A DNA stretch of 64,000 bases from Allobaculum mucilyticum. GTDB taxonomy: Bacteria; Bacillota_I; Bacilli_A; Erysipelotrichales; Erysipelotrichaceae. The DNA lies in the NCBI RefSeq assembly GCF_022701195.1, contig NZ_CP078089.1:1054001-1118000 (forward strand), written 5' to 3'. Position numbers and translations under genes: made by a program. Each line of letters begins with the position of its first letter. Position 1 is the first letter of the stretch. Positions 14,670 to 59,674 of this stretch are shown here, one piece after another. The notes below the pieces were generated by a model that did no database searches, was not told the origin of the DNA, and saw only the letters and a program-made list of their open reading frames with translations.

Positions 14670-17102
14670 ATGAGAAAAAAGAAGACAATGAACCGGCTGC
14701 TCTCGCTTGCACTGTGTCTGAGTGCTCCGGTTTCCTCCATGCTGCTTTGCACGGAACCGCTCCTTGCGCAGGAAACCGCTCCTGCTGAAGTTGAACTCCC
14801 TGATGTATCCGATAAAAAGCCAAACGGTCAGTGGGGAACCGCAAACTACTATCTTCTTGAAGACGGTACCCTGTATTTTGGACCAGGCAAAACCACCGCA
14901 ACACCGAAAAAATTCTATCTGGCCAGCTCTGTTACACGGATTGTGAGTCATCCGGATTTTGATACATCCGCTCTGACTTCGATGTATGAGATGTTTAACA
15001 ACTATGAAAAACTCGAAGACATCTCCGGTCTTGCCACATGGGATATTTCCAACGTAACAACCATGTATGGCGCATTCAGCAACTCAAAAATCAGGAATGT
15101 CGATGCGCTGAGCAGCTGGTACTCTGAAAAGCTGTGGGGCATCAACTCCATGTTCTACAACTGTACAGAGCTGACGGATATCAGCGGTCTGGCTAAGTTA
15201 GGACAGGGCGGACTGCTGCGCGATATGAACGGCACGTTCAACGGCTGTTCTTCTTTAACTTCGCTGGATGGACTGCAGAACTGGACTGGCCATCTGGATT
15301 CTCTGGATTCGATGTCATCCACTTTTGACGGATGCACATCGCTGAAAGATGTATCAGCTCTTGCCGAATGGAAAACACCGAATCTGACCAATCTCTGTCA
15401 GACCTTCAACAGCTGTCCGATCTCAGACCTGAGTGCTTTTACGGACTGGGATGTATCCAAAGTTTCCGGCTTTTCCGGCACATTCACAAACAATGAAATG
15501 CTGATCAGTCTGCACGGACTGGAAAACTGGAACACGCAGTCTGCAACGGGCTATTCACAGATGTTTGAAAACTGTACAAAACTGGTTGATGTGAACGCCA
15601 TGAAAAACTGGACAACCACAAAATGGTTCACCGCCGACAATATTCTCAATAACACGGCAGTTTCCCGTCTCGATCTTTCCGGCTGGAACACTGCGCAGAT
15701 GTTTTTCAGCGACCAGTCATCCAGCCTGTTTTCTAAACCGCTGACTTCGATCAAGCTCTCTTCTTCCTATATGGCGATGATCCGTCCCAATAAGCAGGCA
15801 CTGATCAGATCAAAAGACAGCGACAGCTATGGCGACTCATGGGTCAGCGCAAAGCTTCACGGTCCTTATACTTCGGCCGAGCTGACCGATGGTACGGTAA
15901 CCTGGGATGAAGAAATGGACGGCTGGTGGGGCCGGGCCAAACCGGCTGTTCTTCAGGATGATGAACACGGGATGAAAGCTGACATTTACCTGCCTGCCGG
16001 CGTTGAAACTGCACTTCCGCTGAATGTAGAAGGCTTTGACGGCTCCCCCTTCCACAGCAAGCTCATCGGCTGGAAAAAAGACGGAAGCGACGAGATGATT
16101 ACCTCCTATTCGGCCGCACTGGATGAAGAAAACATCGTTCTTCACCCGGTCTGGGAAATTGAAGATGCCACAACTGTCTGGTCGTTTGATGCCAATGGCG
16201 GTACAGGTTCGATAGACGACATTTCTATCAACAGCAAAGAGACTGAAACAAAAACTATTCCGGACTGTGCATTTACCCGGGAAGACTACCGGTTTACCGG
16301 CTGGAATACTGCAGCGGACGGTTCCGGTGAAACCATGCAGGCGGGCGATGCTCTGCAGGTCGACTTTGACCAGGAGGCACGGACTCTCTATGCACAATGG
16401 GAAAAGATTCCTTCCCATACCGTTACGTTTGATTCTAACGGCGGTACAGGTTCTATGGAAGCGCTGAACTGGAAAGGCGAAGAGGCGAAGACTCTGACGA
16501 AAAACGTCTTTATCCGTACAGATTATGAATTCACCGGCTGGAATACCGCTGCAGACGGTTCCGGCACAGCCTATGCAGATGAAGCTGTAATTGAGGGCAG
16601 CGATTCAGATCAGACCATCACTCTGTATGCACAGTGGAAGAAAATTCCTTCCCATACCGTTACCTTCAATGCCAACGGCGGTACAGGTTCCATGGAAACG
16701 CTCAGCTGGAAAGGCGAAGCATCCAATTCCCTTCCTGAAAATGCGTTCAGCCGCAAATGGTACATCTTTACCGGCTGGAACACTGCTGCAGATGGTTCTG
16801 GTACAGCGTATGCCAATCTTGCGGAAGTTCCAGGCGGAAACGAGGACAGCTCACTTACTCTTTATGCACAATGGGAGCTTCACCTCAATTACGATCTGCT
16901 CAATACGGCGATTGCTAAAGGCAAATCTCTCAAAGGCAAGACCTTCAGCGGTACTGGAAACGAAGATCTGCAGAGCGCTCTTTCAACAGCAGCAGCTGTA
17001 CGTGAAAGTGCCCTTTCGCAGGATGCGGTTGATGATGCAGCTCTTGCGCTGAATCAGGCACTGCTGAATCTGCGGCTGACTGTCGATAATCCTCTTCCAT
17101 AG
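14670..17102 (+). CDS. Secreted BspA-like (DUF285) protein with InlB-type B-repeats
   Basis: 810 aa from ATG 14670 (AAAGGA 7 bases upstream). Signal peptide about 1-32 (basic MRKKK start, hydrophobic core, ending LLAQ). Residues about 90-360 carry DUF285/BspA leucine-rich-like repeats (W-x-x-x-x-x-x-x-x-MF-x-N/C pattern). Three Listeria-Bacteroides (Flg_new, InlB B) repeats follow, each running from about V-x-F-x-x-NGGTGS to TGWNTAADGSG and ending LYAQW. The last 65 residues are a helical FIVAR-like module (A-x-x-K-x-LKGKTF...AL-x-x-A). Predicted surface adhesin or glycan binder; no sortase signal seen. Related in design to the protein at 7984-11628 but with different C-terminal modules. Confidence 0.85.
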   Translation: MRKKKTMNRLLSLALCLSAPVSSMLLCTEPLLAQETAPAEVELPDVSDKKPNGQWGTANYYLLEDGTLYFGPGKTTATPKKFYLASSVTRIVSHPDFDTSALTSMYEMFNNYEKLEDISGLATWDISNVTTMYGAFSNSKIRNVDALSSWYSEKLWGINSMFYNCTELTDISGLAKLGQGGLLRDMNGTFNGCSSLTSLDGLQNWTGHLDSLDSMSSTFDGCTSLKDVSALAEWKTPNLTNLCQTFNSCPISDLSAFTDWDVSKVSGFSGTFTNNEMLISLHGLENWNTQSATGYSQMFENCTKLVDVNAMKNWTTTKWFTADNILNNTAVSRLDLSGWNTAQMFFSDQSSSLFSKPLTSIKLSSSYMAMIRPNKQALIRSKDSDSYGDSWVSAKLHGPYTSAELTDGTVTWDEEMDGWWGRAKPAVLQDDEHGMKADIYLPAGVETALPLNVEGFDGSPFHSKLIGWKKDGSDEMITSYSAALDEENIVLHPVWEIEDATTVWSFDANGGTGSIDDISINSKETETKTIPDCAFTREDYRFTGWNTAADGSGETMQAGDALQVDFDQEARTLYAQWEKIPSHTVTFDSNGGTGSMEALNWKGEEAKTLTKNVFIRTDYEFTGWNTAADGSGTAYADEAVIEGSDSDQTITLYAQWKKIPSHTVTFNANGGTGSMETLSWKGEASNSLPENAFSRKWYIFTGWNTAADGSGTAYANLAEVPGGNEDSSLTLYAQWELHLNYDLLNTAIAKGKSLKGKTFSGTGNEDLQSALSTAAAVRESALSQDAVDDAALALNQALLNLRLTVDNPLP

Positions 17103-34366: not shown

Positions 34367-34943
34367 TTAATTTTTGAGATTTTCAAGTGCGGAGGCATCT
34401 GGGGTCAGACGAATTGCCATCCAGGCTTTGTTCAGATTTCTTGCAGCTGCATCGATTTCAATCTGCGAAGTCGAACTCAGCATATCTTTCGCTTCCTTGA
34501 GCGCATTCTGCAGTTCATCCTGGCCAGCCGGACCGAATTTTTTCAGGTCTGCAGATTCGACGGCATGGATCACGAGTTCAAGCAGATCAGTCGAAACAGG
34601 ATCCGGACGTTTTGCAAGATTGCCAAACGCCTGATCATAGGCAGCTTTCTTCTCTGCAATTGCGGTTGTGGTTGCAGTCGATGGATCTTCAAGAGCAGTT
34701 TCAAGTGCCTGTTTGGCTGCTGTATAAGCTGCAGCACTCTGGTCTGTATAGCCGCTAAGATCCAGTTTCTTATTGGCATCGATGGCTTTGAAGGCATCCG
34801 AGGCAGCCTTCACGATTTCAAGATTTGCCTGAAGTTCTGCAGCTGTTTCATCAACTTCATTCTGATTCTCGAAATCATCCGATGTCAGCTCACTGGCCAG
34901 CTCGGCGATCATTGCTGCACTGCTCTTCCAGACTTCGCTCAGT

Positions 34944-35090
34944 TTGTTTTCAGCATTGGATGCAAAGTCATTCAGTGCTTTTGCGTTGGCTTTGAGCGTT
35001 TCAAGATTGAAGACTTTCTTCAGGACAAGAGCCGTTTTTGCATCGTTATACGCTTTGAGCTTGCTTTCAATCTGTGTCTTCTGTGCAGCT
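34944..35090. repeat. Direct repeat copy A in the galactosidase tail
   Basis: Near-identical to 35355-35501, at an offset of exactly 411 bp (137 codons). It encodes the repeated segment around VFNLETLKANAKALNDFA and LKAYNDAKTALVLKK. Confidence 0.75.
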
Positions 35091-35354
35091 GATGGACTAG
35101 CAAGTTCGGCTTCAAGTGCCTGTTTAGCGGCTGTATAAGCACCGCTCGTTTCAGTTGTATACAGGCTCAGGTCAAGAGCTTTATTGGCATCGAGGGCTTT
35201 GAAGGCATCCGATGCGGCTTTAACTGTTTCAAGAACTGCAGTGAGTTCTGCTGCTGCAGAATCTGCATCATTCTGACTGTCGAAGTCATCGGATGTTTTA
35301 GCGGCTGCTGCAGCTGCGGTATCTACCGCACTGGTCTTCCAGGCTTCGCTCAGC

Positions 35355-35501
35355 TTGTTATCTGCATCTGCTGCAAAGTCATTCAATGCTTTTGCGTTGG
35401 CTTTGAGCGTCTCCAGATTGAAGACTTTCTTCAGGACAAGAGCCGTTTTTGCATCGTTATACGCTTTGAGCTTGCTTTCGATCTGCGCTTTCTGTGCAGA
35501 T
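35355..35501. repeat. Direct repeat copy B in the galactosidase tail
   Basis: Partner of 34944-35090. The high nucleotide identity points to recent duplication or gene conversion, and copy number may vary between strains. Confidence 0.75.
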
Positions 35502-38500
35502 GCCGGAGTTGCAAGTTCGGCTTCAAGTGCCTCTTTTGCGGCTGTGTAAGCAGCGCTGGTTTCATCGGTATACAGGCCCAGGTTAAGGTCTTTATTTGCA
35601 TCAATTGCTTTGAAGGCATCTGATGCAGCTTTCGCTGTATCAAGAACAGTCTGAAGCGCTGCAGCTGCTGCATTGACTTCATCCTGAGATTTATACACAT
35701 TCGAATCGATTGCGGTCTGCGCATCCTCTTTTGCTTTGGTTACAGCAGAAATCCAGGCTGCACTGAGTTTTGCGGTTTCGTCTTTCGCAAGTTCGTTCAA
35801 AGCGGAATTTGCTGTGTTGAGTGCAGTCAGATCCAGTACCGGCGCTTCGACATGCTCTGTAACGATTTTTGCATTGCACCAGTCAACGCAGTCATCATTC
35901 TGGTTTCCAAGCTTGTCGGCATAAAGAATCAGCTTGCTTACGCCAGTAACATCGAACGATACATATTTGCCTTCCTGTCCCTGTACGACAGTTCCGGCAT
36001 CATAGAGCAGATTCTCATCGCTGATGGAATCTGTATAGAACGTGAACTTCGCTCCGTCGCGACCGGTTTTTCCATCTTTCAGGAAGTCGATGCCAACCCA
36101 TGCACTGAAGGTCAGCGTTTTTTCGTTCTGCGGCAGACTGCTCAGATCATAGACAAGTGTTGCATTCGCATTGGCGGACAGGCCCTGATCGAACGCAACC
36201 TGTTCACCGGCAATCCGCATGGACAGACCTGTTTTTGATGCAGCGGTACCCGAATCAGCTTTGTTGATATGAATGCCGCCCCATGCGCTTTGCGATGCAG
36301 AAGCATCAAAGAGAAGAACATCGAAGTCTTCGCCTTTTTCCATTGCGCCTTCGACACCTTCGCCCGTCAGGTACCAGGTGTCATATTTCGTATCAGCATT
36401 GGCTGTTTTGCGGGTAACAGAAGCCGTTACGCCAGATTCGTCAGCCGCAGCTGCTGTAACTGATGCGCTTCCTTCTTTCAGGAAGGCAGCTTTTCCGTCT
36501 GCAGAGATATGGAGAACATCTGTATTTACAGTTGAGAACTTCACATCTTTATTCGTTGCATTAGCCGGTTCAATCTCTGCACCAAGGGTGTAGACAGTTC
36601 CGACAGCCGGAGTTTCCGGCAGGCCGGTAATTGTAATTGCGGTTACAGGAACTTCCGGATCTTTCAGACCGCCAAGCTCTTTCATCAAAGCCAGGTCTTC
36701 ATCGTCGAGTTCGCCGTTGAAGTTCAGATCGGCAGCCCGGACGTAGAGAATATCGGGATTTTCTTCTGCACGGAGGGTGGCAAAGCGGATAATGTCCGCT
36801 TCGGTAATGGCCGAATCAGCAGAACCGTCGATATCGCCCTTCACCGCAATCTTCAGCTCATCCAGCTTGTTGCCATCCTTGAACAGGCGCAGCCAGTATC
36901 CCGTACCAGCCGGAGCATCTTCGCTCTGCTCGCCGCCCATGGCTTCAGCCATTTCCAGCGTGCAGCCTTCCGGAACATCGATCATGTCCTTAATCTGTGC
37001 AAATGTTGTTTTCGGAGCAATGCTGTAAAGAATCTTATTTGCGGAATCAAGTTTTGCACTTGCTCCGGCTTTGAGTCTGATGGATTCCGTTTCCGGCTCT
37101 TCAGCACTCGGGCGGGTCAGTTTCATATCGCCCCAGGAAAGCATGTCATGACCATTCTTGATGTTCTTATCAACGTACAGAACGATTTCTTTTGCGTTGC
37201 GTACATCGACATCGAAGTAGAAGGCATTCTCATTGTTCTTGAGCAGGTTGCTTCGGGCGACTTCAGTGCCGTCTACGATGATGGCTGCATAACATCCATC
37301 CTGTGTTCTGTTTTTCTCCAGGTCGATGCCGGCATAGCCCTGCAGACGGTCAATTTCCAGATTGGAAACATCAAAGTAAAGCCAGGAATCCGAGTTGACG
37401 CCAAATCCTTTTTCAAACTTCTGCTCGGCTCCGTCTACTTTCAGACGGATTGGATTGCCGTTGTTATTTTTATCAACATGAATGCCATTGTATCCGGAAG
37501 AAGAACGGCTGGCATCATAGCCGATATCGGAAAGATAGTATTCGCTCGAACAGCTCAGTTCGATGGTGTACGTCTTGTCGTAGCCATTGGCTTTGACGGC
37601 TTTGATTTTCAGTGTGCCAGGAACGCTGTCCGGTTTGATGACTTCAACGGTTACATCATCTGCATGATCGACAGTGACTTCCGGAACTTCCGTGGTTCCC
37701 GCATTGAGTTCGAATGTATACGAGCCAATGGATGAATTCCAGTTTGCGACGCTCTTGTCACCGATCGTCACGCCAGAAATCAGTTCTGTATCATCTGGAA
37801 TATCGACTCCAGTGATCTCTTCAATATCATCTGTCGAAGAAACCGGACGCAGGTGATAGCTCCAGGTATAAGAGTGATCCGTTCCCAGGCGGTATTTGCT
37901 CAGTGTAGCCGGACCGCAGCTTGCGGTACCCAGACCCATCTGTGCATAGTCGATCGTCAGAACGGTCGAATCTTTCTTTGTCAGTTCATATGGATGAGCC
38001 GCAGCATCCAGATCTTCCTGCGTATAGTGCAGTGCAGACATCGAGAGCAGATGATCATCTGCATCAATCAGAAGACCTTTTCCGGAATCGTCCGTCAGAG
38101 ACATCCACCGGACATCTGTCTTGTTTCCGGTCTCCTGCGGATAAACGAAATTCACAAACTGGTTATCTACGGTATCACTCCAGATTCCCGCATCGTAACC
38201 GGTTTTCCGGTCTGCGTAGGAGTCTTCTTTTCCGTTGCCGTACCAGGTCATGTTTTCCAGTGTACTGTCGAGTTCAAGACGGTTGCCGACACGCAGCAGC
38301 TCGCCCATCTGTCCAGACGGTGCAAGCGTGCTCTTGACGAATACGTCGCCGCTTGTGGTTACCGAATAGGTGATGGAATCTTTCGAGTTTTTGGCTTCCG
38401 GCAGTATTCGCTCAACAGTTACATAGACCGTCTTATCGCTCTTCGATACAGAAGTCGTGACGACCGGATTGTTATTGGCGTTTTTCCAGGCTCCGTCAAC

Positions 38501-44500: not shown

Positions 44501-44526
44501 GAAAAGAGCCGGCATTTTACCGGCTC
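44501..44526 (-). terminator. Terminator of the Sel1-repeat gene, overlapping its stop
   Basis: On the minus strand GAGCCGG-taaaatg-CCGGCTC then TTTTC. The first arm includes part of the stop codon region of the gene. Confidence 0.75.
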
Positions 44527-45055
44527 AGTTGAGTCCGTTATGAACCAGATCGATCTGGTCAAGAAGCAGCTGCGCCTGACGGCTGTTCTGCCTGACGGCT
44601 GTCTCCAGCCAGTATCTGGCCAAGAACTGACTATGCCCAACCCATTTGCCGCTGCAGTACATCTTTCCTAACAGGATCTGCGCATCCACATATCCGCCCT
44701 GCGCGGCTTCGAACAGATATTCAAGTCCCTGCTCAGTGTCCAGTTCATCCGGCGGGCAGATGCTTCGGACGTTTCCCAGATAATACTGACTCAGAACGTA
44801 TTTTGCTTCATTGCTTCGGTTTTCCGCTGCAAGCTTGAGGAACTGGATGCCGCAGCGGGTGTCCCCGTCGATGAGCGATTTAACGCCCTCGATAAACTGC
44901 GCATGCGGTTCATCGCAGGCCAGCGCCCGGTCAAGCCAGCGTCTGGCATAATCCTGTTCCGGACGGTTGTTATACTCTTCATACAGAGCAAGACATGCTT
45001 TTCCATCACCGGTTGAGGCCTGCGCTTCAAGCTGTCTGAGAACTGCCATTTTCAT
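44525..45055 (-). CDS. Sel1-like repeat protein
   Basis: 176 aa of alpha-helical Sel1/TPR-like repeats: the pattern A-x-x-x-L-x-x-x-Y-x-x-G...A-x-x-W-L-x-x-A-A is seen at about 18-50 (ACLALYEEYNN...ARRWLDRAL), 52-80, 87-125 (YVLSQYYLGN...GLEYLFEAAQGG) and 126-160 (AQILLGKMYCSG...ARYWLETAV). Such proteins act as scaffolds for protein-protein contacts. Cytosolic, no signal peptide. AGGAGGG site before ATG 45055. Single-gene unit; the IS4-type element is inserted about 85 bp upstream of its start. Confidence 0.8.
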   Translation of the reverse strand: MKMAVLRQLEAQASTGDGKACLALYEEYNNRPEQDYARRWLDRALACDEPHAQFIEGVKSLIDGDTRCGIQFLKLAAENRSNEAKYVLSQYYLGNVRSICPPDELDTEQGLEYLFEAAQGGYVDAQILLGKMYCSGKWVGHSQFLARYWLETAVRQNSRQAQLLLDQIDLVHNGLN

Positions 45056-45218: not shown

Positions 45219-45346
45219 TTTTTTCTTAGCAGAACATATCGGTTATTTGTTTGTAATATTCGGTTTTTCGGGAATATCAGGTTGTTTTATAACTCAAATC
45301 GTGCGGCCGCTTCGCGGCCCGTTAAGTGACGGAAAGGAAAAATCTT

Positions 45347-46666
45347 ATGCCCTCACTTAACACATTCTGCAACCTGCAGTCGGCTGCTCTCAAGCGCTTC
45401 ATCAAAGAAGAAGCATCCAATTCTGACAATCTGCTCCACCCGGATTCTGACTTCTCTCGCTCCCGCAGGCTTTCCGCTGTCGATCTGGCAGCCGTGGCCT
45501 ACCAGACGGAAGATCGCTCGATCAACCGATCTCTTCCCATTCTTCCTGATTCTCTGTCCGACGTTTCTTTATCTGCCATTTCCCAGGGCAGACAGAAAAT
45601 CAGGTTCTTGCTTTACTCTCACGTCTTCTATCGCATGAACGATTTGTTCTCTTCGGAGGATGACAAAACGTTTCATGGATGGCGACTATTGAGCGTCGAC
45701 GGTTCTGAACTATCAGTCAGCCCCGATGGGAATGACATGTCTACCTATGGCGGATCGAAAAAGGGATCCAAGCACCATTTTTACCTTGCGAATCCGCTGT
45801 ATGACGTGCTCAACCATGTTTATCTCGATCTGGTGATGCAGCCAGGTTCTCAGAAGAACGAGGACTCAGCTTTTCTGGAGCTGGCTCAGCGATACGAAGG
45901 AGAAAAGGCGATCTTCATTTGCGACAGAGGCTATGAAGCGCTTATGACTTTCTATCGTCTGAATCAGACCGATAAGCATTTCGTCATCCGAATCAAGGAC
46001 GAATCTTCCTCTACCAGTATTCTGAAGCACTATCCAACACCAGATACTGAAGAATATGACATTCCATTCGATGTGACTTTGACGTGTAAAAACAACTCCC
46101 ATGTCAAGGCAAACTGGGAAACCTACAAATACATCTCGTCCTATTCAAAACATCCGGAATTCCAGAATGGAGTGACTGAACTGCCGCTCCACGGCAGAGT
46201 CGTACGCTATAAAACGGTCTGCGAAGGGATTGAGTCTTTCATCACACTTTTTACCAACCTGCCGTTTGATGAATTCACCACCGAGGATCTCTGTGAAATC
46301 TACCGACTCCGCTGGCAAATTGAGCTCTCGTATCGAGATATCAAAGAGCGGATTGGACTGAAGGATGTGCATGGACGCAAGAAGGAACTGGTCATTGGAG
46401 AAGTCTTCGCGAAAATGACGCTCTACAACCTGTATTCCCGGATCAGAAACAAGGTTGAAAACAGTCAGGAATTCGCTGAACGCTGCCGAAATGCCATGAA
46501 GAGGAAGTGGGAACAGAAGGCAGATTACGCATTTCTGATCACTGCGGTTCACGCGTTTCTATGGGACAGCGGAGTTTATACCGCAGACAAGCTGATCAAT
46601 TTGATCCTTCATAAGACGCAGTCCGTTCGTCCAGGGCGAGCGGATAAGCGCAAAAAGAAGCGCTGA
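45347..46666 (+). CDS. IS4-family transposase
   Basis: 439 aa from ATG 45347, preceded by GGAAAGGA; an in-frame GTG at 45326 lies upstream of that site. DDE features: LLSVDGSELSVSP (first Asp), FICDRGYEALMTF (second Asp) and the Y-x2-R-W-x-I-E-x-S-Y/F-R-D-x-K block seen here as YRLRWQIELSYRDIKERIG (Glu), the Y(2)R(3)E(6)K signature of IS4. Full length with a basic C-terminus (RPGRADKRKKKR). It catalyses cut-and-paste movement of the element. Confidence 0.92.
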   Translation: MPSLNTFCNLQSAALKRFIKEEASNSDNLLHPDSDFSRSRRLSAVDLAAVAYQTEDRSINRSLPILPDSLSDVSLSAISQGRQKIRFLLYSHVFYRMNDLFSSEDDKTFHGWRLLSVDGSELSVSPDGNDMSTYGGSKKGSKHHFYLANPLYDVLNHVYLDLVMQPGSQKNEDSAFLELAQRYEGEKAIFICDRGYEALMTFYRLNQTDKHFVIRIKDESSSTSILKHYPTPDTEEYDIPFDVTLTCKNNSHVKANWETYKYISSYSKHPEFQNGVTELPLHGRVVRYKTVCEGIESFITLFTNLPFDEFTTEDLCEIYRLRWQIELSYRDIKERIGLKDVHGRKKELVIGEVFAKMTLYNLYSRIRNKVENSQEFAERCRNAMKRKWEQKADYAFLITAVHAFLWDSGVYTADKLINLILHKTQSVRPGRADKRKKKR

Positions 46667-46829: not shown

Positions 46830-47104
46830 ATTTGAATTACTAGACAAAAAATATTTCAATGGTATAAAATTTACAATTTTCTTATTCCAAAGTACCATTG
46901 AAACAGTGTTTTCCTCAAGCAAATCTGGCACCAAACCATCCGGAAAAGACGGGTTTTCTTTCTTTTTGGGCGGTCCAATTTTCAGATTCTTTCGATGGAT
47001 TGAGCTGAGTGTTCTTTTACGGAAGATCCTGCTTCTTTACAAAGCGACAAATGTTCGTTTTTCAGAATTTCTTCTACAATAGAACCAGAAGGAGATGTTA
47101 TTAC
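46830..47104. other. Region between the IS element and the HesB-like gene
   Basis: AT-rich 275 bp. It includes the ribosome site AGAAGGAGATG of the next gene and presumably its promoter. A longer frame runs in from 47009 but lacks signals. Confidence 0.35.
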
Positions 47105-47542
47105 ATGCTTACAATTACTGAACCCGCAGTGGCGGAACTGAAAAAAATTATGGCTGAGAACGGAGCTGACGGTCTTCAGGCAGTACTTGCCCAGACCTGC
47201 TGCAGCGTATCCCCTGTTTTCCAGATGGTTCGTTTTGATGAAGGCGATGAGCCTGTTGAAATTTCCGGCATTAAAATTCTGATGGATGACGACACAAAAG
47301 CTGTTGTTGATGAAGCCATCATCGATGTCCAGGACGGCGAACTGATGGTTTTCATGCCTGCACAGGGCGGCGGATGCTGCGGAGGTCATGGCGGTCATGA
47401 CCACGATGGCGGATGCTGCGGAGGTCACGGCGATCACGACCATGATGGCGGATGCTGTGGAGGCCATGGCGACCACGATCACGACGGCGGATGCTGCGGC
47501 GGTCATGGCGATCATGAAGGCGGATGCTGCCACAACGAATAA
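47105..47542 (+). CDS. HesB/IscA-like protein with a tandem Cys/His metal-binding tail
   Basis: 145 aa from ATG 47105 (AGAAGGAGATG upstream). Residues 1-86 resemble the HesB/IscA fold (MLTITEPAVAELKKIM...; VEISGIKILMDDDTKAVVDEAIIDVQDGEL) but the cluster-binding Cys of true A-type carriers are not in place; a TCCS pair sits at about 34-37. Residues 89-145 are four tandem 13-aa units of the form GGCCGGHGDHDHD plus a last partial unit ending GGCCHNE: about 10 Cys and over 10 His in 57 residues. The tail should bind several thiophilic or borderline metals (Zn, Ni, Cu or Co). Likely a metal store, chaperone or Fe-S related protein; the exact role is not known to me. Terminator at 47619-47655. Confidence 0.75.
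   Translation: MLTITEPAVAELKKIMAENGADGLQAVLAQTCCSVSPVFQMVRFDEGDEPVEISGIKILMDDDTKAVVDEAIIDVQDGELMVFMPAQGGGCCGGHGGHDHDGGCCGGHGDHDHDGGCCGGHGDHDHDGGCCGGHGDHEGGCCHNE
47369..47542 (+). repeat. 39-bp tandem repeats coding for the metal-binding tail
   Basis: Units start at 47369, 47408, 47447 and 47486, each beginning GGCGGATGCTG, with a shorter last unit from 47519. The copies differ slightly at third positions, so they are not brand new. Confidence 0.85.
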
Positions 47543-47697: not shown

Positions 47698-48561
47698 TTA
47701 TTTCAGTTTCAGCACGTTCTTGTAAACGCCATCGACAGCTTTGAAGCCTTCTTTTTCAAGAAGCTCTCCTGGCAGTCCGGCTGCATAGACCTGCGGCAGT
47801 TTGCGGCGTTTTGCTTCTTCAAGCAGACGGGTAAGGATTTCTTTTTCGTATCCATTGCCTTTGAGCTCTTCGTCACACCAGAAATCGCACAGATAGCCGA
47901 TTCGGCCGTCGGTCTGTTCCGGTGTTGGAGGCGTGAAAATCCAGGCGATGCCGCCAGTAGCGACAATGCGGTTTTTCCACCAGGCAAAGATCTGGTGCAG
48001 AGCACCGCTGCGCATCTGGGCTGCAAAGTAGCGCTCGAGTTCAAAATCGAGGCTGTCATCTTCAACGCCGAGTTCTTTTTTGCGCAGTTCAACGAGTTTG
48101 GGGATATCGTTGCGAACCGCACGGCGGTAAACGATCTTCGGCACTTCTTCAAAAGCAACCTCATTTGCCTGGCACCAGTCTTTAGCAAACTGCATGTAGC
48201 GGTCGTCTTCGTACTCATACCACTCATTGAGCAGACCATACTGGCTGACTGCGTTTTTAAAACGCTTGAAGATGCCTTTTCCTCCGCTAAGAGCAGTAGT
48301 CAGTGCATCTTTGGCTGCGCCATCGGGCAGCGTCCATGAGTATTCACGCATCATGTGGATATCTCCGGCATCCCGGCTGTCTGGGATCAGAATCAGATCC
48401 TCATACTGCTTATCAATTTCGTCATCAATTTCCATCAGTTCACGTGTCGACAGGTGTTCGTCACGCATGATGATTTCTCCCGAACGGGTATTGAGATAGT
48501 ACTCAACTGAATTGCTTCCGCCCTGAATCGCATCAACAATATCGTCAAGATCGATTACCAT
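47698..48561 (-). CDS. UPF0158-GNAT acetyltransferase fusion
   Basis: 287 aa. Residues 1-135 look like UPF0158 (MVIDLDDIVDAIQGG; VEYYLNTRSGEII; FKNAVSQYGLLNEWYEYEDDRYMQFAKDWC). Residues 140-287 form a GNAT domain (YRRAVRNDIPKLVELRKKELG; RIVATGGIAWI; CDFWCDEELKGNGYEKEILTRLLEEAKRR; a variant of the acetyl-CoA loop where Q/R-x-x-G-x-G/A is ELKGNGYEKE). The fusion suggests that the UPF0158 part recognises the acetylation substrate. Ribosome site GGAGGAAATT before ATG 48561 and an extended -10 promoter at 48630-48638. Confidence 0.75.
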   Translation of the reverse strand: MVIDLDDIVDAIQGGSNSVEYYLNTRSGEIIMRDEHLSTRELMEIDDEIDKQYEDLILIPDSRDAGDIHMMREYSWTLPDGAAKDALTTALSGGKGIFKRFKNAVSQYGLLNEWYEYEDDRYMQFAKDWCQANEVAFEEVPKIVYRRAVRNDIPKLVELRKKELGVEDDSLDFELERYFAAQMRSGALHQIFAWWKNRIVATGGIAWIFTPPTPEQTDGRIGYLCDFWCDEELKGNGYEKEILTRLLEEAKRRKLPQVYAAGLPGELLEKEGFKAVDGVYKNVLKLK

Positions 48562-48679: not shown

Positions 48680-51600
48680 TCAGCGTCCTGTTTTTTCTTT
48701 CTGCTTCTGAAGCTGAATCAGGCGCAGTTCCTCACGGCGTCGGACATCAAGCAGCTCGTCTGCATCGCGTCTGGAGACCAGCCGCAGCAGACCGCCGCTC
48801 ATGGACGCTGCTGTAAAGAGCGTGCCATACCAGATAATCTCCTGATCAATGATCAGACAGGGAGCCGTCACTCTGGGATGCAGGTGCAGATGAAGTCCGG
48901 CTTGCCAGAAGGCCTGACGAAGAACTTCGGATGCTTCTTCCAGAAACAGATCGACGCGTACGCCCCGGTTAGCCGCTTTAGACAGAAGAGGAACAAGGAT
49001 GCGTGCCTGGTTGCCGTCAAGATAGCGGGCACAGAGTGCAATGCGTGTTTTTGCCTTGCGTAGATCCGTCAGCAGAGGATCTTTCCACGTCTCTTCCAGA
49101 TAATACTGACCGTTTCGATCCGTGTTCTGACTCGATTCCGGCGTACCGATCTGGTAGCCCTGCTTGATGTATTCTTGAAGCCGGTCGCGGTACATCCGCT
49201 CAAACATTGGCGTCTGTACATCCGCATAGTCATAGACAATGGCAGTATCCTTGCCTTCTGTCTGCCGGTGAATTCGGCCGATGGACTGAGATACGGATGT
49301 TTTGGAATGAATCGGCAGGGCAAGCATCAGCGTATCGAGATCCGGAAAGTCGAATCCCTCACTCACACTCGCATACGTGCCAATCAGAACCGTCTTCCGT
49401 GCCGGGCCACCGGCTTTTTTTGCGGCTGTGATGGCCTTCAGTTTTGCGGCATTGGCCTGCTTTTCTTTCGGATCGCCGGCATAGATGAGCAGATCCGTCT
49501 TTTCATCCGGTTCAAGAAGTCTGGCCAGCAGTCTGGCATGTTCAACAAAGCGGGTCAGCACAAGAACCGTCCGGCCATTATTCAGCGCTTCTTTTACATC
49601 ATCAATGATCTGCGCGTTTCGCAGCGGATGGAGCGAAGCTTCCTGACACAGACGCAGGAAGTCATTTTCCTGAACGTCATCGCTCATAAACGAAGTAAAG
49701 CGCGGGCACACCAGACGGAAGAACGACTGGCCGGCCATCTGATCTTTCGAACTGAATGACGCCGCAATTTCGCCAAGCTGCCAGTACATCGACGGGCTCT
49801 TGCGGTCCGTTCGCTCCGGCGTTGCACTGAAGCCGTATACATAGCGGCTTGGAACATGGTCGAGCACCTGCTGATAGGTTGTCGCTGAGGCGTGGTGGCA
49901 CTCATCCACCAGGACCATTCCGTAGTTTGAAAGAATCGAATCCAGATCTTTTCTTCCAGATAAAGAGGGCACCATCGCCAGATCCACCCGGCCATTCAGC
50001 GTATTGGTTGCACCCTGCAGTACGCCGATTTTTCCCGGATAGTTTTTCGACGGCGCTTTCCAGGATTCAAAAGCCGGATCGTCAAAGCGCAGGAAGCGGT
50101 TGAGTGCGCCCACCCAGCCCTGCAGAATTTCCTTGGAATTGACCAGAACCAGCGTCGGCGTCTTCTTCTTTGCGATCAGCGATGCGCCGATAACCGTTTT
50201 ACCCGTTCCAGTTGCCGCCTGCAGAATGCCGTTCTCTTTTTGAAGCAGAGCAGCCTGCAGCGGAACCTGTTCGGATCGGAGCTTCTCGGTAAAGGAAAGA
50301 CCAAGTTCAGGCGGATCGGATCGCAGATCCTCAACTGTATAATCGATATTTCTTGACTGGAAATAGGATTCAAGCGTATCAAGCAGTGCCCGGGGCAGCG
50401 AAAGCCATCTTGAGCCATCCGTATCGGTTTCCACCCGGCCAAGGGCGATCACCCGGCTTCCATTTGTATACTTGGCTTTCTTTTTTGTGTATTCCGGATT
50501 CCAGTAGCAGGCAAGCGAGCGGATTTCGGCCTGCATGGGTGCTGAAAACTGATCGGCCCGCACGCGCAGACGTTCACGCTGTTCAATGCACACAGGTCCC
50601 GCCAGTTTATTCTCACTTTTCTGTGAACTTTCTGCCTGTTCTGCCATCGAGGAAAAGAGATCCAGCACTGGCTGCGGCATGGCCGTTGGCTGAAGAATTG
50701 CCTTTGGATCTTCTTCAAACAGTCTCTCGCACCGGTTATCCCGGGTCTGGCGGATCTGCAGATCTGCTGTTTTAAGCGAAACTCTGTGAACCAAACTAAG
50801 GCGTTCAAACGGATTCTGCGCAAGACTTCCATCTTCATTCAAAAACGCACTGTCCTGCCAGTCGGCATCCGGATTTCCTGCCCGACCGGTAAACAGACCG
50901 CGCAGCGGCAGCTCAAGCGTTCCGCCAAAACTGTTCTTTTCCAGCATGGCGCCTGCCGGGAAAATACCGTCAAACGCTTCGGTACTCTGCAGAATGCCTT
51001 CGGCATAGGCGTTGAGAAGCAGCGAGAGCACAAACCGGCTTGCTCGGTTGGCATCAATGGGGATTTCAAAGAAAAACCACAGCCGCAGACTGTCCCGGTC
51101 GACACTGACATGGCTGATCCGCAGTTCACACAGTGTATCGATGCCCTGCATGGAGGCATAGCAGACAATCTGTTCCATCTGCTCATAGCGGTCTTCACCT
51201 TTGAGCGTAATCGAGGCAAACGCAATCGTTCCATCATCCAGAATCGGTGTAATGGCTACATCTTCCCGGTTGGCAAAATGGTCGCGCAGCGTCTTGGGCG
51301 AAAGCGGGGCAAGCGGTCGTTTGGCACACTGCATACAGTCGATCCGGCGTGCTCCGGCTTCATTTTTGGGGCAGTCCGGCTCAAAACGACGATTGCAGGG
51401 TACATAGAAGTAGCCGTTGCGGCTGCGCAGGCGCCATCCGCCATCTCTTCCTTTGAAATACGACAGGAACAGGTTCGCGTATTCCAGCGTCAGCGCCGGT
51501 TCGCTCATGCGTTTCCAGGTGGAAACAGCCTGTCTGGAAAGTTCGGCTTCTGTCGGCTTTTCAATCTCAATCGCCGCTTCTTCATTCTGTCTGGAAGAAC

Positions 51601-51904
51601 CGGTATCCGACGAACGGACGTCAGCGTGTTCAGGTGCGTTTTCTGCCTGCTTCGTTTCCTTTGGAGAAGCTGCTTCCAAAGAAGGAATCTCTTCTTTTGA
51701 TATCTTCTCTTTCTGTGCTTTTTCCGGCTGTGTCTCTGCTTTTGGTTCTGTCCTGACCGCAGATTTTTCAGCAGGAGAAGCCATCCAGGCAGCCCGTTCA
51801 TACGGGATATGACTGGCATCGAGCAGTGCATACAGGCGCTCAATTTCTGCGGCGAGCTCCTCCTTTTTTGGCAGGGCTGGCCGTTTTTTCTTTGGTTCTG
51901 CCAT
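48680..51904 (-). CDS. TOTE-like protein: AEP-primase-like domain, SF2 helicase, PLD-like domain
   Basis: 1074 aa. N-terminal coiled and acidic/Ala-rich linker (1-135). Residues about 150-390 resemble the TOTE-type archaeo-eukaryotic primase domain: SYFKGRDGGWRLRSRNG, four Cys in C-x(7)-C...CMQC, GIFPAGAMLEKNSFGGTLELP. However, where family members have the catalytic DxD there is I232-T-L234, and the H of the later S-G-x-G-x-H motif is replaced (VDRDSLRLWFFFE, Arg274). Residues about 530-930 are an SF2 helicase with intact motifs: ATGTGKT (Lys569), DECHH (667-671), GFSATPERTD, SIGRIHRQTEGKD. The C-terminal PLD-like region has T-A-P-x4-D1020 in place of H-x-K-x4-D. Likely DNA-acting, possibly defence-related. 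It lies 48 bp after DUF1848 on the same strand. Confidence 0.75.
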   Translation of the reverse strand: MAEPKKKRPALPKKEELAAEIERLYALLDASHIPYERAAWMASPAEKSAVRTEPKAETQPEKAQKEKISKEEIPSLEAASPKETKQAENAPEHADVRSSDTGSSRQNEEAAIEIEKPTEAELSRQAVSTWKRMSEPALTLEYANLFLSYFKGRDGGWRLRSRNGYFYVPCNRRFEPDCPKNEAGARRIDCMQCAKRPLAPLSPKTLRDHFANREDVAITPILDDGTIAFASITLKGEDRYEQMEQIVCYASMQGIDTLCELRISHVSVDRDSLRLWFFFEIPIDANRASRFVLSLLLNAYAEGILQSTEAFDGIFPAGAMLEKNSFGGTLELPLRGLFTGRAGNPDADWQDSAFLNEDGSLAQNPFERLSLVHRVSLKTADLQIRQTRDNRCERLFEEDPKAILQPTAMPQPVLDLFSSMAEQAESSQKSENKLAGPVCIEQRERLRVRADQFSAPMQAEIRSLACYWNPEYTKKKAKYTNGSRVIALGRVETDTDGSRWLSLPRALLDTLESYFQSRNIDYTVEDLRSDPPELGLSFTEKLRSEQVPLQAALLQKENGILQAATGTGKTVIGASLIAKKKTPTLVLVNSKEILQGWVGALNRFLRFDDPAFESWKAPSKNYPGKIGVLQGATNTLNGRVDLAMVPSLSGRKDLDSILSNYGMVLVDECHHASATTYQQVLDHVPSRYVYGFSATPERTDRKSPSMYWQLGEIAASFSSKDQMAGQSFFRLVCPRFTSFMSDDVQENDFLRLCQEASLHPLRNAQIIDDVKEALNNGRTVLVLTRFVEHARLLARLLEPDEKTDLLIYAGDPKEKQANAAKLKAITAAKKAGGPARKTVLIGTYASVSEGFDFPDLDTLMLALPIHSKTSVSQSIGRIHRQTEGKDTAIVYDYADVQTPMFERMYRDRLQEYIKQGYQIGTPESSQNTDRNGQYYLEETWKDPLLTDLRKAKTRIALCARYLDGNQARILVPLLSKAANRGVRVDLFLEEASEVLRQAFWQAGLHLHLHPRVTAPCLIIDQEIIWYGTLFTAASMSGGLLRLVSRRDADELLDVRRREELRLIQLQKQKEKTGR

Positions 51905-51952
51905 AGATGGCCTCCTTTCTTTTCTTATTCTGTTTGGTTCTCTGCATCCGGT

Positions 51953-52831
51953 TTACTTCTTACGGACTTTGATGGTATCGGAATCCGAAAGATGTCCTAT
52001 TAACAGAGATGAATCTGGATCATGCATATGAACTCTGCTGCGGATCTGCGCTTCATCATAATTGGCATAGCAGTAGCGGCAAAGATGCATGCAGGTGTTG
52101 TATGCGCCGACATCAGCCATTTCCACACAGCCGCAGTCGCGCGCTTTCCATTTTCCAAACGATTTTCCTGTCCACTGTCTGGCCTTTTCTGCAGAGAAGC
52201 AGGCACCGCCCGGAATTCCATAGGGTTCGAGGATGTTTCCTTCATTGCAGGTAAAAACCTCCAGACCATGGGCTTTTGCGCTTTTCGAAAAGCCTTCGCC
52301 GATTGCTTTCAGATCCGCTTCAATCGGTTTTCTTGCGCCGATCTGAGCTGCATTGCGTCTCGTGTTTTTATAGTCATCCAGAAAAGAGATCGTCACGGAC
52401 TCAACCAGACCTTCCAGCAGAGTGCAGAGCTTTTCAAATGCACGCAGATGATAGTCAAGCGTGTAGCGGGCATTGAGGATGATCGGATCATAGCGCACAG
52501 TCAGATGATCCGGACCGAGAATCTTCGACATCTGCCGTATGCCTTCGATGATCTTCGTTTTGTCGATGACATTCGGTTCAAGATCTTCATGATAAGCCGT
52601 CACAGTAACATCCATCAAAACCGGCTGCTTAAAGCGGTCAAGATACGGAATGAGCGGCAGCGGATTTTTTGTGCAGAACATCCAGGCATCGATATCCTTT
52701 GTATAAATCCGTGAAACGCTTTTTGGATAGAACGGATTTCGGACGTCAAAATAGCCGGCTTCGAGCCGGTTAAGCAGCCACGGCGTATAGAACGCCGGGA
52801 TATCGGTCCGGCAGCTTGCACTTAAAATCAT
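51953..52831 (-). CDS. DUF1848 protein with C-terminal CX3CX2C motif
   Basis: 292 aa. Begins MILSASCRTDIPAFYTPWLLNRLEAGY and has WMFCTKNPLPLIPYLD and DHLTVRYDPIILNARY, which I recognise as DUF1848. Near the C-terminus, CGCVEMADVGAYNTC precedes C247-x3-C251-x2-C254, which has the spacing of the radical-SAM 4Fe-4S motif, although those usually sit N-terminally. This suggests an Fe-S, possibly radical-SAM-like, TIM-barrel enzyme of unknown substrate. AAGGGGTGAG ribosome site before ATG 52831. The TOTE-like helicase gene follows 48 bp later on the same strand, so the two probably form an operon. Confidence 0.8.
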   Translation of the reverse strand: MILSASCRTDIPAFYTPWLLNRLEAGYFDVRNPFYPKSVSRIYTKDIDAWMFCTKNPLPLIPYLDRFKQPVLMDVTVTAYHEDLEPNVIDKTKIIEGIRQMSKILGPDHLTVRYDPIILNARYTLDYHLRAFEKLCTLLEGLVESVTISFLDDYKNTRRNAAQIGARKPIEADLKAIGEGFSKSAKAHGLEVFTCNEGNILEPYGIPGGACFSAEKARQWTGKSFGKWKARDCGCVEMADVGAYNTCMHLCRYCYANYDEAQIRSRVHMHDPDSSLLIGHLSDSDTIKVRKK

Positions 52832-57771: not shown

Positions 57772-59674
57772 GATGCGCCCGACAAAAGTAACAAATAGCT
57801 GAAGTGTGTTCATAGATCTTGGACTGATCCGAATTTTTCAAAATAATGCTACAATTAATTGAAATTAATCTCGATTAAATTAATATTAGTAGTATAATAT
57901 AATTGAATATTTCGGGGGTGTTTCTTATGTCGCAGTCCAAGTTCAAACCCATTCAGATGAATCTCTTCGATCTAACCTACTCACTTTCTGATCGAAAGCT
58001 CAGAATGCTTGAATCCGGCTGGCCGGGCTATTTCAACCGTGTCATTATTCCTGAGCTGGTTAAACTTGAATCGATTTTTGAGCCTCTTTACTCAAAGAAC
58101 ACCAACACCAGACCTTCAACTCCTACATACCTCGTTTTAGCTATGCTTGTTTTGAAAGATCTGTTTACTCTGACAGACGAAGAACTGGAGAGAAGCGTTA
58201 CCTTTTCTCTGGAGTATCAGTTCGCTCTTGGAACAACGTCCTTTGAACATCAGCCGGTAAACCAGAGAACGCTTAACCGCTTTCGTGCTGCCAATGCCTT
58301 TTATATGCAGCAGACTGGCATCGATCTTCTCCATGAATTTGCCGAAAAACTGGCCAAGTCTCTTAAAGACGCCTATCTTGGCACCAATCTCAAGCGGAGA
58401 ATGGACTCCATCATGGTCGATAACGGCGCCAGAAAGCTTTCAAGACTGCAGCTGGCGCATGTGGTCATTAAAAACATGCTCATGGTTTTGGATGAAAACA
58501 AAATCGCAATCCCCGAGAATCTTCAACACTATATCGAGGACTTCGATGAGAATAAGGTTACTTATCACTCCCATACTCCGGCTGCGGCTAAACTGCAGAC
58601 CGCTTTTCAGGATGCCTGTGCCGTTCGTGATCTGATTCCAGGCACGCTGAATGACTGTGAAGAAGCACAGATGCTCATCCGCTTTGTTTCCGAGCAGGTC
58701 AACACAAACACCGATGGCTCTTTTCATTCCGTTCGTGACGGAAAAGAGCTGAACTCGACTGTCCTGAACAATCCAGTTGAGCCGGAATCGACTTTCCGTA
58801 AGAAGGCCGGTGAAAATCACCAGGGATACGTTGGCAATTTCGCTGAAACAGTCGACCTCGATACCAACCGAAAGATCATCGACTCATTTGATTTCCAGCC
58901 CAATATCTACAGCGATTCCAAGTTCGCCAAAGATGAAATTCAGAAGATGGCTGAAGAAGGAGACGAAACAACTTTGGTTGCCGACGGAGCCTACATCAGC
59001 GTGGATAACATCAATGAAGCAGCTGAACACGGAATTCAACTTGTAGGAACTGCTATGACGGGTAAAGAAACACCCGATTTGACTGCTGATTTCGAAATCG
59101 ATGAAGAAACAAAAACGGTAACCTGCCCAAACGGAAAGACTGCAGATCGAGTAACCTACTACGAGAAAACCGATTCCTGGAATATCTCATTCCACAAAGA
59201 AACAACCTGTAAAGATTGCCCATTCGCTGCAACTGGCCGATGCCCGATGAAAAATCACAAAAGAGTCAGATCTGGAACCATTTCCCAGAAGAAGATCCAA
59301 AGAGCACACCTTCAGCGGACCATGAAAAGTGAAGAGGCAATTGCCAATTACCGGTTCAGAAACGGTGTTGAAGCTATCCCAAACCAGCTAAGAAGGAATC
59401 AAAAAATTGATACCCTTCCGTTCAGGGGGTTAGTGCGCAAAAAATTCGGATATACGTTAGCTATTACGGCAATAAACGTAAGACGAGTGCTGAAATACGC
59501 ACAAGAAGATGCCAAACAGGCATTGGATCTTCTTGTATCTTCGCTGATTCAAGCTATGTATGTGAAATATGCCCCAATTTCACATATTGAACTCAATTTA
59601 GCTTTTGTTTGTGTTCACTATTGATGAACACCAAATCTGCCGTCAGCAAAATTGGGTATTTTGTCTGACGCATC
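57772..59674 (+). mobile_element. Complete IS1182-type insertion sequence, 1903 bp
   Basis: The ends form an imperfect inverted repeat of about 30 bp: GATGCGCCCGACAAAA at the left and GATGCGTCAGACAAAA (complement) at the right, with a shared GCTGA further in. Both ends are flanked by the same 7 bases, TTAGGAG. One full-length transposase gene fills the element. Its AT-rich leader (57840-57926) differs from the host genes. Insertion was 18 bp downstream of the lipoprotein stop, so no gene was broken. Confidence 0.85.
57927..59624 (+). CDS. IS1182-family transposase
   Basis: 565 aa from ATG 57927, after a GGGGGTG site. DDE catalytic residues: MDSIMVDNGARK (Asp), LVADGAYISVDN (Asp) and FRNGVEAIPNQLRR (Glu). 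The N-terminal TRPSTPTYLVLAMLVLKDLFTLTDEELERSV region and the Cys-rich zinc-knuckle insertion CKDCPFAATGRCPMKN before the Glu are typical of IS1182. Full length with no frameshift, so likely functional. Confidence 0.92.
   Translation: MSQSKFKPIQMNLFDLTYSLSDRKLRMLESGWPGYFNRVIIPELVKLESIFEPLYSKNTNTRPSTPTYLVLAMLVLKDLFTLTDEELERSVTFSLEYQFALGTTSFEHQPVNQRTLNRFRAANAFYMQQTGIDLLHEFAEKLAKSLKDAYLGTNLKRRMDSIMVDNGARKLSRLQLAHVVIKNMLMVLDENKIAIPENLQHYIEDFDENKVTYHSHTPAAAKLQTAFQDACAVRDLIPGTLNDCEEAQMLIRFVSEQVNTNTDGSFHSVRDGKELNSTVLNNPVEPESTFRKKAGENHQGYVGNFAETVDLDTNRKIIDSFDFQPNIYSDSKFAKDEIQKMAEEGDETTLVADGAYISVDNINEAAEHGIQLVGTAMTGKETPDLTADFEIDEETKTVTCPNGKTADRVTYYEKTDSWNISFHKETTCKDCPFAATGRCPMKNHKRVRSGTISQKKIQRAHLQRTMKSEEAIANYRFRNGVEAIPNQLRRNQKIDTLPFRGLVRKKFGYTLAITAINVRRVLKYAQEDAKQALDLLVSSLIQAMYVKYAPISHIELNLAFVCVHY

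Follow-up and report, generated by a model that had tools for sequence, protein, structure and literature searches.

The window, by which we mean the whole stretch of 64,000 nucleotides analysed, carries a gene whose product has lost the catalytic residues of its AEP primase domain and has kept its helicase motifs intact. We interpret this protein as a primase pseudoenzyme specific to its genus and borne on a selected SF2 helicase of the XPB/RadD type, a reading to which we assign a probability of about 0.62 and which is drawn from the sequences of four genomes, two of them incomplete. The AEP domain would have lost the residues that hold the catalytic metal and the nucleotide, this loss having arisen once, in the ancestor of the genus or early in the genus, while the activity under selection would be ATP-driven engagement of DNA by a helicase that presumably remains an active ATPase. 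Because the helicase was kept and the primase site lost at one point of the tree, comparison with an AEP-intact relative would allow one to ask which functions need primer synthesis. The literature that we found does not settle the role of AEP in AEP-helicase conflict proteins, and the AEP-TOTE label is no guarantee of an active primase.

The gene is a single open frame without internal stop (Table 1), and its product shows the order AEP, SF2 helicase and PLD that had been proposed in the first-pass annotation. Pfam recognised AEP-TOTE (PF22548) at residues 144-378 with E 1.2e-24 (87.7 bits against a cut-off of 27), this being the only AEP-TOTE gene in its own genome. ResIII and DEAD were above their cut-offs and Helicase_C was just below (22.9 against 23.5 bits), the three together spanning residues 550-880, and a sub-threshold PLDc_2 match covered residues 945-990 (17.2 against 27 bits; E 0.0048). 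A profile built from 14 family members matched the AEP crystal chains 7nqd/7nqf (E 1e-24), XPBII (E 3.9e-31) and, at the C-terminus, the cardiolipin hydrolase PLD6 (E 2.3e-4). In a profile of the PLD part alone, the match to PLD6 (PDB 4ggj) improved to E 1.6e-5 and its alignment includes the H-x-K column. L088, a relative in which AEP is intact, retains H-x-K and matches PLDc_2 strongly (8.2e-14). Taking these profile matches together, the domain order is correct and the N-terminal domain is indeed related to AEP. The structure modelled by AlphaFold from 13 sequences has a mean pLDDT of 70.3 and a pTM of 0.49. Its block means of pLDDT ranged between 72 and 89 over residues 201-310, with 56 at 261-270, between 42 and 62 over residues 311-350, and between 85 and 92 over residues 941-1050, with 69 at 1031-1040; values fell below 50 at residues 160-197, which hold most of the zinc region, and in most of the N-terminus. 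The model places the DxD position on the strand 226-235 and the histidine position on the strand 272-284.

Table 1. Features of the AEP-helicase-PLD-like gene and its two flanking genes, in positions of the window.
Feature	Position	Strand	Basis
DUF1848 gene, co-oriented, 48 nt upstream; upstream in G001 too, not in G002	51953..52831	-	Pfam, neighbourhood comparison
AAGGAGG ribosome-binding site, six bases 5' of ATG	51911..51917	-	sequence reading
AEP-helicase-PLD-like protein, 1074 aa	48680..51904	-	open frame and Pfam
N-terminal extension, aa 1-139, pLDDT mostly <50 in model	51488..51904	-	AlphaFold model
AEP-TOTE domain, aa 144-378, catalytic residues lost	50771..51475	-	Pfam, alignments, PDB profile
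Cys knuckle C170, C178, C190, C193, kept	51326..51397	-	alignments
DxD metal motif position, T233-L234-K235	51200..51208	-	alignments, PDB profile
SGxGxH motif position, aa 269-274; His is R274	51083..51100	-	alignments
SF2 helicase domain, XPB/RadD-like, aa 541-925 (own bounds; Pfam 550-698, 769-880)	49130..50284	-	Pfam, NCBIfam, profile search
Walker A region, aa 563-571, intact	50192..50218	-	alignments
DECHH Walker B motif, aa 667-671, intact	49892..49906	-	alignments
Helicase motif VI, aa 873-880 (Q..GR..R), intact	49265..49288	-	alignment
PLD-like domain, aa 941-1056	48737..49084	-	Pfam (weak), relatives, model, PLD profile
H-x-K position, T1013-A-P1015	48860..48868	-	alignment, PLD profile
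UPF0158+GNAT fusion, downstream neighbour; adjoins in G001 and G002 too	47698..48561	-	Pfam

The fate of the primase site was read from an alignment of 99 rows, made up of four proteins of the genus and 95 others, in which split genes entered as separate rows. The 95 came from the family, the order, the class, Lachnospiraceae, the order of a Coriobacteriia genome, viral contigs and five plasmids. Matches in the genome searches were kept at E <= 1e-50, and identical, contained and weak ones were removed from the alignment; the sample comprises the 7 of 80 viral loci whose match reached AEP and five plasmid records (173 match the protein and 84 the AEP part), and leaves out the matching order genomes G171, G176, G223, G228 and G259 and a second copy in G636. 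DxD was intact in all 81 rows from outside the genus that cover it and the catalytic histidine in all 84 that cover that position, and neither was intact in any of the four genus proteins, in which DxD reads TxK, TxE, DxA and QxG and the histidine is replaced by R, R, T and Q. The loss that had been read in the window protein alone is hence fixed among its close homologues. Arg274 had been rightly read at the histidine position of that protein, and the aspartates had been placed one residue off, at I232-T-L234, where the family alignment gives T233-L-K235. A shifted alignment concealing an intact DxD was considered and rejected, two MAFFT alignments and the PDB profile being in agreement: the profile including the window protein was aligned over AEP to 7nqd with its d-x-d opposite the DID of the chain. 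We infer that this DID corresponds to D177/D179 of MpCAPP; according to PMC8211822, mutation of the two DxD aspartates (D177/D179 in MpCAPP, D86/D88 in DbCAPP) abolished activity. The AEP domain of the genus is thus very probably catalytically dead, with the helicase under selection, and would be expected to lack polymerase activity.

Not all of the domain has been lost. All four genus proteins still match AEP-TOTE (Pfam E between 2e-16 and 9.8e-25), and the four cysteines of the knuckle, rightly annotated as kept, are present in each of them and in 77 of the 78 other rows that cover them. A set of 42 AEP columns shows conservation in 90% or more of 81 relatives. All four proteins keep 11 of these (the four Cys, F150, W276, D312, P316, G327, L332 and P333), and another 11 are found in none of the four, D235, S269, G272, H274, R289, R313 and Q318 being among the latter; a shuffle test on these columns takes no account of common descent, and its outcome should not be read as a probability. 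This pattern looks like a catalytic pocket lost from a retained scaffold and, the zinc knuckle and the fold core being kept, the domain is likely to function still in scaffolding or in nucleic-acid docking. Outside the genus we observed an altered G270 position in two rows and an altered Gly before AH in one (L206). A clade of dead AEP-TOTE proteins was not described in the literature searched, most subscription papers lying outside that search. Archaeal PriX was examined as a possible earlier example of an inactive AEP and set aside, PMC5862659 tying it to PriL/PriCT.

Five genomes of the genus were examined and the gene was found in four, the window protein being 45% identical to its orthologue in G001, 41% to that in G002 and 37% to that in G003 (completeness is 58% for G001, 66% for G003 and 67% for G004). 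A tree of residues 430-925, from which the AEP columns are absent, placed the four proteins in one clade (100/100) on a long stem, with a possible tree artefact in that the amino-acid composition of P0001 and L003 is unlike that of the alignment. On a fixed helicase topology, with 71 rows left after thinning from 76, the ratio of AEP to helicase branch length was 2.91 in the clade (5.62/1.93) versus 0.84 elsewhere (29.81/35.67), and three genus tips ranked first, second and third of 52 by this ratio, with L005 ninth. The stem of the clade showed little AEP excess (0.94/0.73) and L004 retains D233, so the decay may have gone stepwise. In AEP the six genus pairs share between 23 and 31% identity, against 48-66% expected from helicase identity, and the shortfall of any of them was matched by none of the 2529 pairs among 72 intact rows, pairs that are not independent of one another.

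The C-terminal domain has a different history. The family alignment and the PLD profile agree with the first-pass annotation in placing T1013-A-P1015 at H-x-K, so the feature expected of an active PLD nuclease is absent; that annotation had also joined this loss to that of the primase, and here it fails. H-x-K is kept in only 4 of the 72 rows that cover the position, and among the 62 of these that also cover AEP the primase site is intact in every one and H-x-K in three, from which the loss in PLD is seen to be family-wide and separate from the event in the genus. We accordingly rejected the death of PLD as part of the AEP loss. For two genus proteins, PLD is affected by a contig end (L005) or lies in another frame of the 58% complete assembly (L003).

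Placing the protein among known systems requires separating the domain from the system. TOTE stands for TPR, OB, TBP and Effector (PMC12458937), and the window protein has the AEP-TOTE domain of the effector and the domain order of a TOTE-type protein. A search for TBP, however, gave no match in the genome that carries the gene, even with E values as high as 1 allowed; as a control it matched in 9 of 14 genomes, bacteria included, and exceeded the cut-off in 4. By Pfam, the two flanking genes are a DUF1848 gene and the UPF0158+GNAT fusion rather than TPR or OB proteins, with a Sel1-like gene (44525-45055) farther along. For these reasons the earlier assignment survives as a domain label, and we do not file the gene as a TOTE system. 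Proteins with AEP-TOTE and an SF2 helicase, with or without PLD, share with it the domain order, homology in both parts and the zinc cysteines, and differ in that those outside the genus keep DxD in every row that covers it. The AEP of CAPP (PDB 7nqd, 7nqf) is homologous as well; as reported in PMC8211822, one CAPP type has Prim-Pol followed by a helicase, as the window protein does, and the two CAPPs tested are active polymerases with DxD, where the window protein has T-L-K and, at the histidine, R274. The helicase core matches RadD too (E 1.5e-12, NCBIfam), but the NCBIfam scores are far below the cut-offs (46.6 against 720 bits for RadD, 25.2 against 610 for XPB), and the AEP and PLD parts are extra to XPB and RadD. 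The domain homologous to PLD6 differs from it in the T-A-P at H-x-K, a motif lost in 68 of 72 rows of relatives.

The protein probably derives from a defence effector, and it may still be a defence protein, the AEP activity having been taken over by a partner or become unneeded and the helicase alone attacking or remodelling invading DNA. Relatives have a patchy distribution (22 of 145 genomes in the family, four of them of the genus, 41 of 294 in the order and 23 of 392 in the phylum, all counts including the genus) and occur also on plasmids; one AEP-intact relative (L174:7133-16684) immediately follows a complete JetABCD set of type I Wadjet on the same strand, at one of the four loci whose neighbours were scanned with PADLOC; the DUF1848 gene upstream matches PADLOC RTasDUF1848, the model of a reverse-transcriptase defence system, at E 1.4e-31; and fast evolution suits conflict. 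This explanation has nevertheless to contend with a chromosomal neighbourhood common to three species, the UPF0158+GNAT, HesB-like, Sel1-like and AzlC genes lying downstream in G000, G001 and G002, and with the fact that UPF0158+GNAT, one of the two flanking neighbours scanned, had no PADLOC match; we regard it as a doubtful but serious possibility. In G003 the gene lies near P1-peptidase and CysE genes, which are a few kb off in the window. These comparisons covered 10 neighbours at 4 loci with PADLOC and 10 neighbours at 7 loci with Pfam. Phage records gave 1208 matches, none over more than 80% of the protein, and the 15 matches listed span the helicase part alone. Several AEP-intact relatives (L012, L013, L037, L041 and L219) are split or have in-frame stops, so that a number of genomes from beyond the genus carry a broken copy.

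Returning to the pseudoenzyme interpretation, a more specific version, for which we would offer somewhat less than even odds, is that one genus domesticated a primase-helicase of the defence type and turned its primase into a zinc-knuckle platform that docks on DNA and aims the XPB/RadD-like motor. If this is true, the protein is a natural case of separation of function, its helicase half being useful without primer synthesis. The protein could act as a docking scaffold or, as suggested at first, possibly as a sensor, translocase or regulator; its service might be in defence or in housekeeping.

It is apparently the motor that selection still preserves, and here the evidence bears on another explanation, namely that the whole gene is decaying, with constraint lost first in AEP and next in the helicase. 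Protein identity between genus species is low (34-42%) against most neighbours (about 61-79% for UPF0158, DUF1848, AzlC, HesB, P1-peptidase and CysE), although the Sel1-like neighbour is equally poorly conserved (41-51%); the mid region, residues 430-540, is also unusually divergent in four of the six genus pairs; and a different gene occupies the syntenic site in G004. The helicase domain alone, with 46-66% identity, is nearer most neighbours, and the low value for the whole protein fits partial relaxation. Against general decay, the frame is open over AEP and helicase to at least residue 921 in all four species, and Walker A (K569-T570), D667-E668 and Q873, G876, R877 and R880 of motif VI are intact in all four proteins, as the first-pass annotation held for the Walker A, DECHH and ATP-coupling motifs of the window protein, so that every SF2 motif sought is present. 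Compared with 49 relatives, 181 of 192 conserved cells are kept in the helicase against 74 of 148 in AEP, and a rough dN/dS between P0001 and L003 was about 0.24 in the helicase and 0.45 in AEP, synonymous sites being saturated in most pairs. Newly invariant positions in the four proteins (24 in the helicase, 2 in AEP) add little weight because any long stem would yield some. Decay of the whole gene is in our judgement unlikely.

Continued AEP activity by way of a displaced, non-canonical site is highly improbable, for in spite of D312 being kept in all four proteins and an AEP dN/dS below 1 for P0001 and L003, the four have no new acidic or His position in common and the metal, triphosphate-loop and Arg positions were lost together.

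Some minor observations concern the surrounding DNA. The UPF0158+GNAT fusion was found in all five genus genomes, and in G004 a short UPF0158 coding remnant (L186:4177-4263) lies beside the unrelated gene at the site expected for the helicase gene. The HesB-like protein (47009-47542, + strand; named by eye), with orthologues in G001, G002 and G004, ends in a Gly/Cys/His/Asp repeat with a DNA unit of 39 bp (47369-47514), possibly a metal-binding tail. Tandem repeats of 237 bp and 411 bp lie at 16383-16813 and 34770-35668, and DDE transposase genes flank the region at 45326-46666 and 57903-59624.
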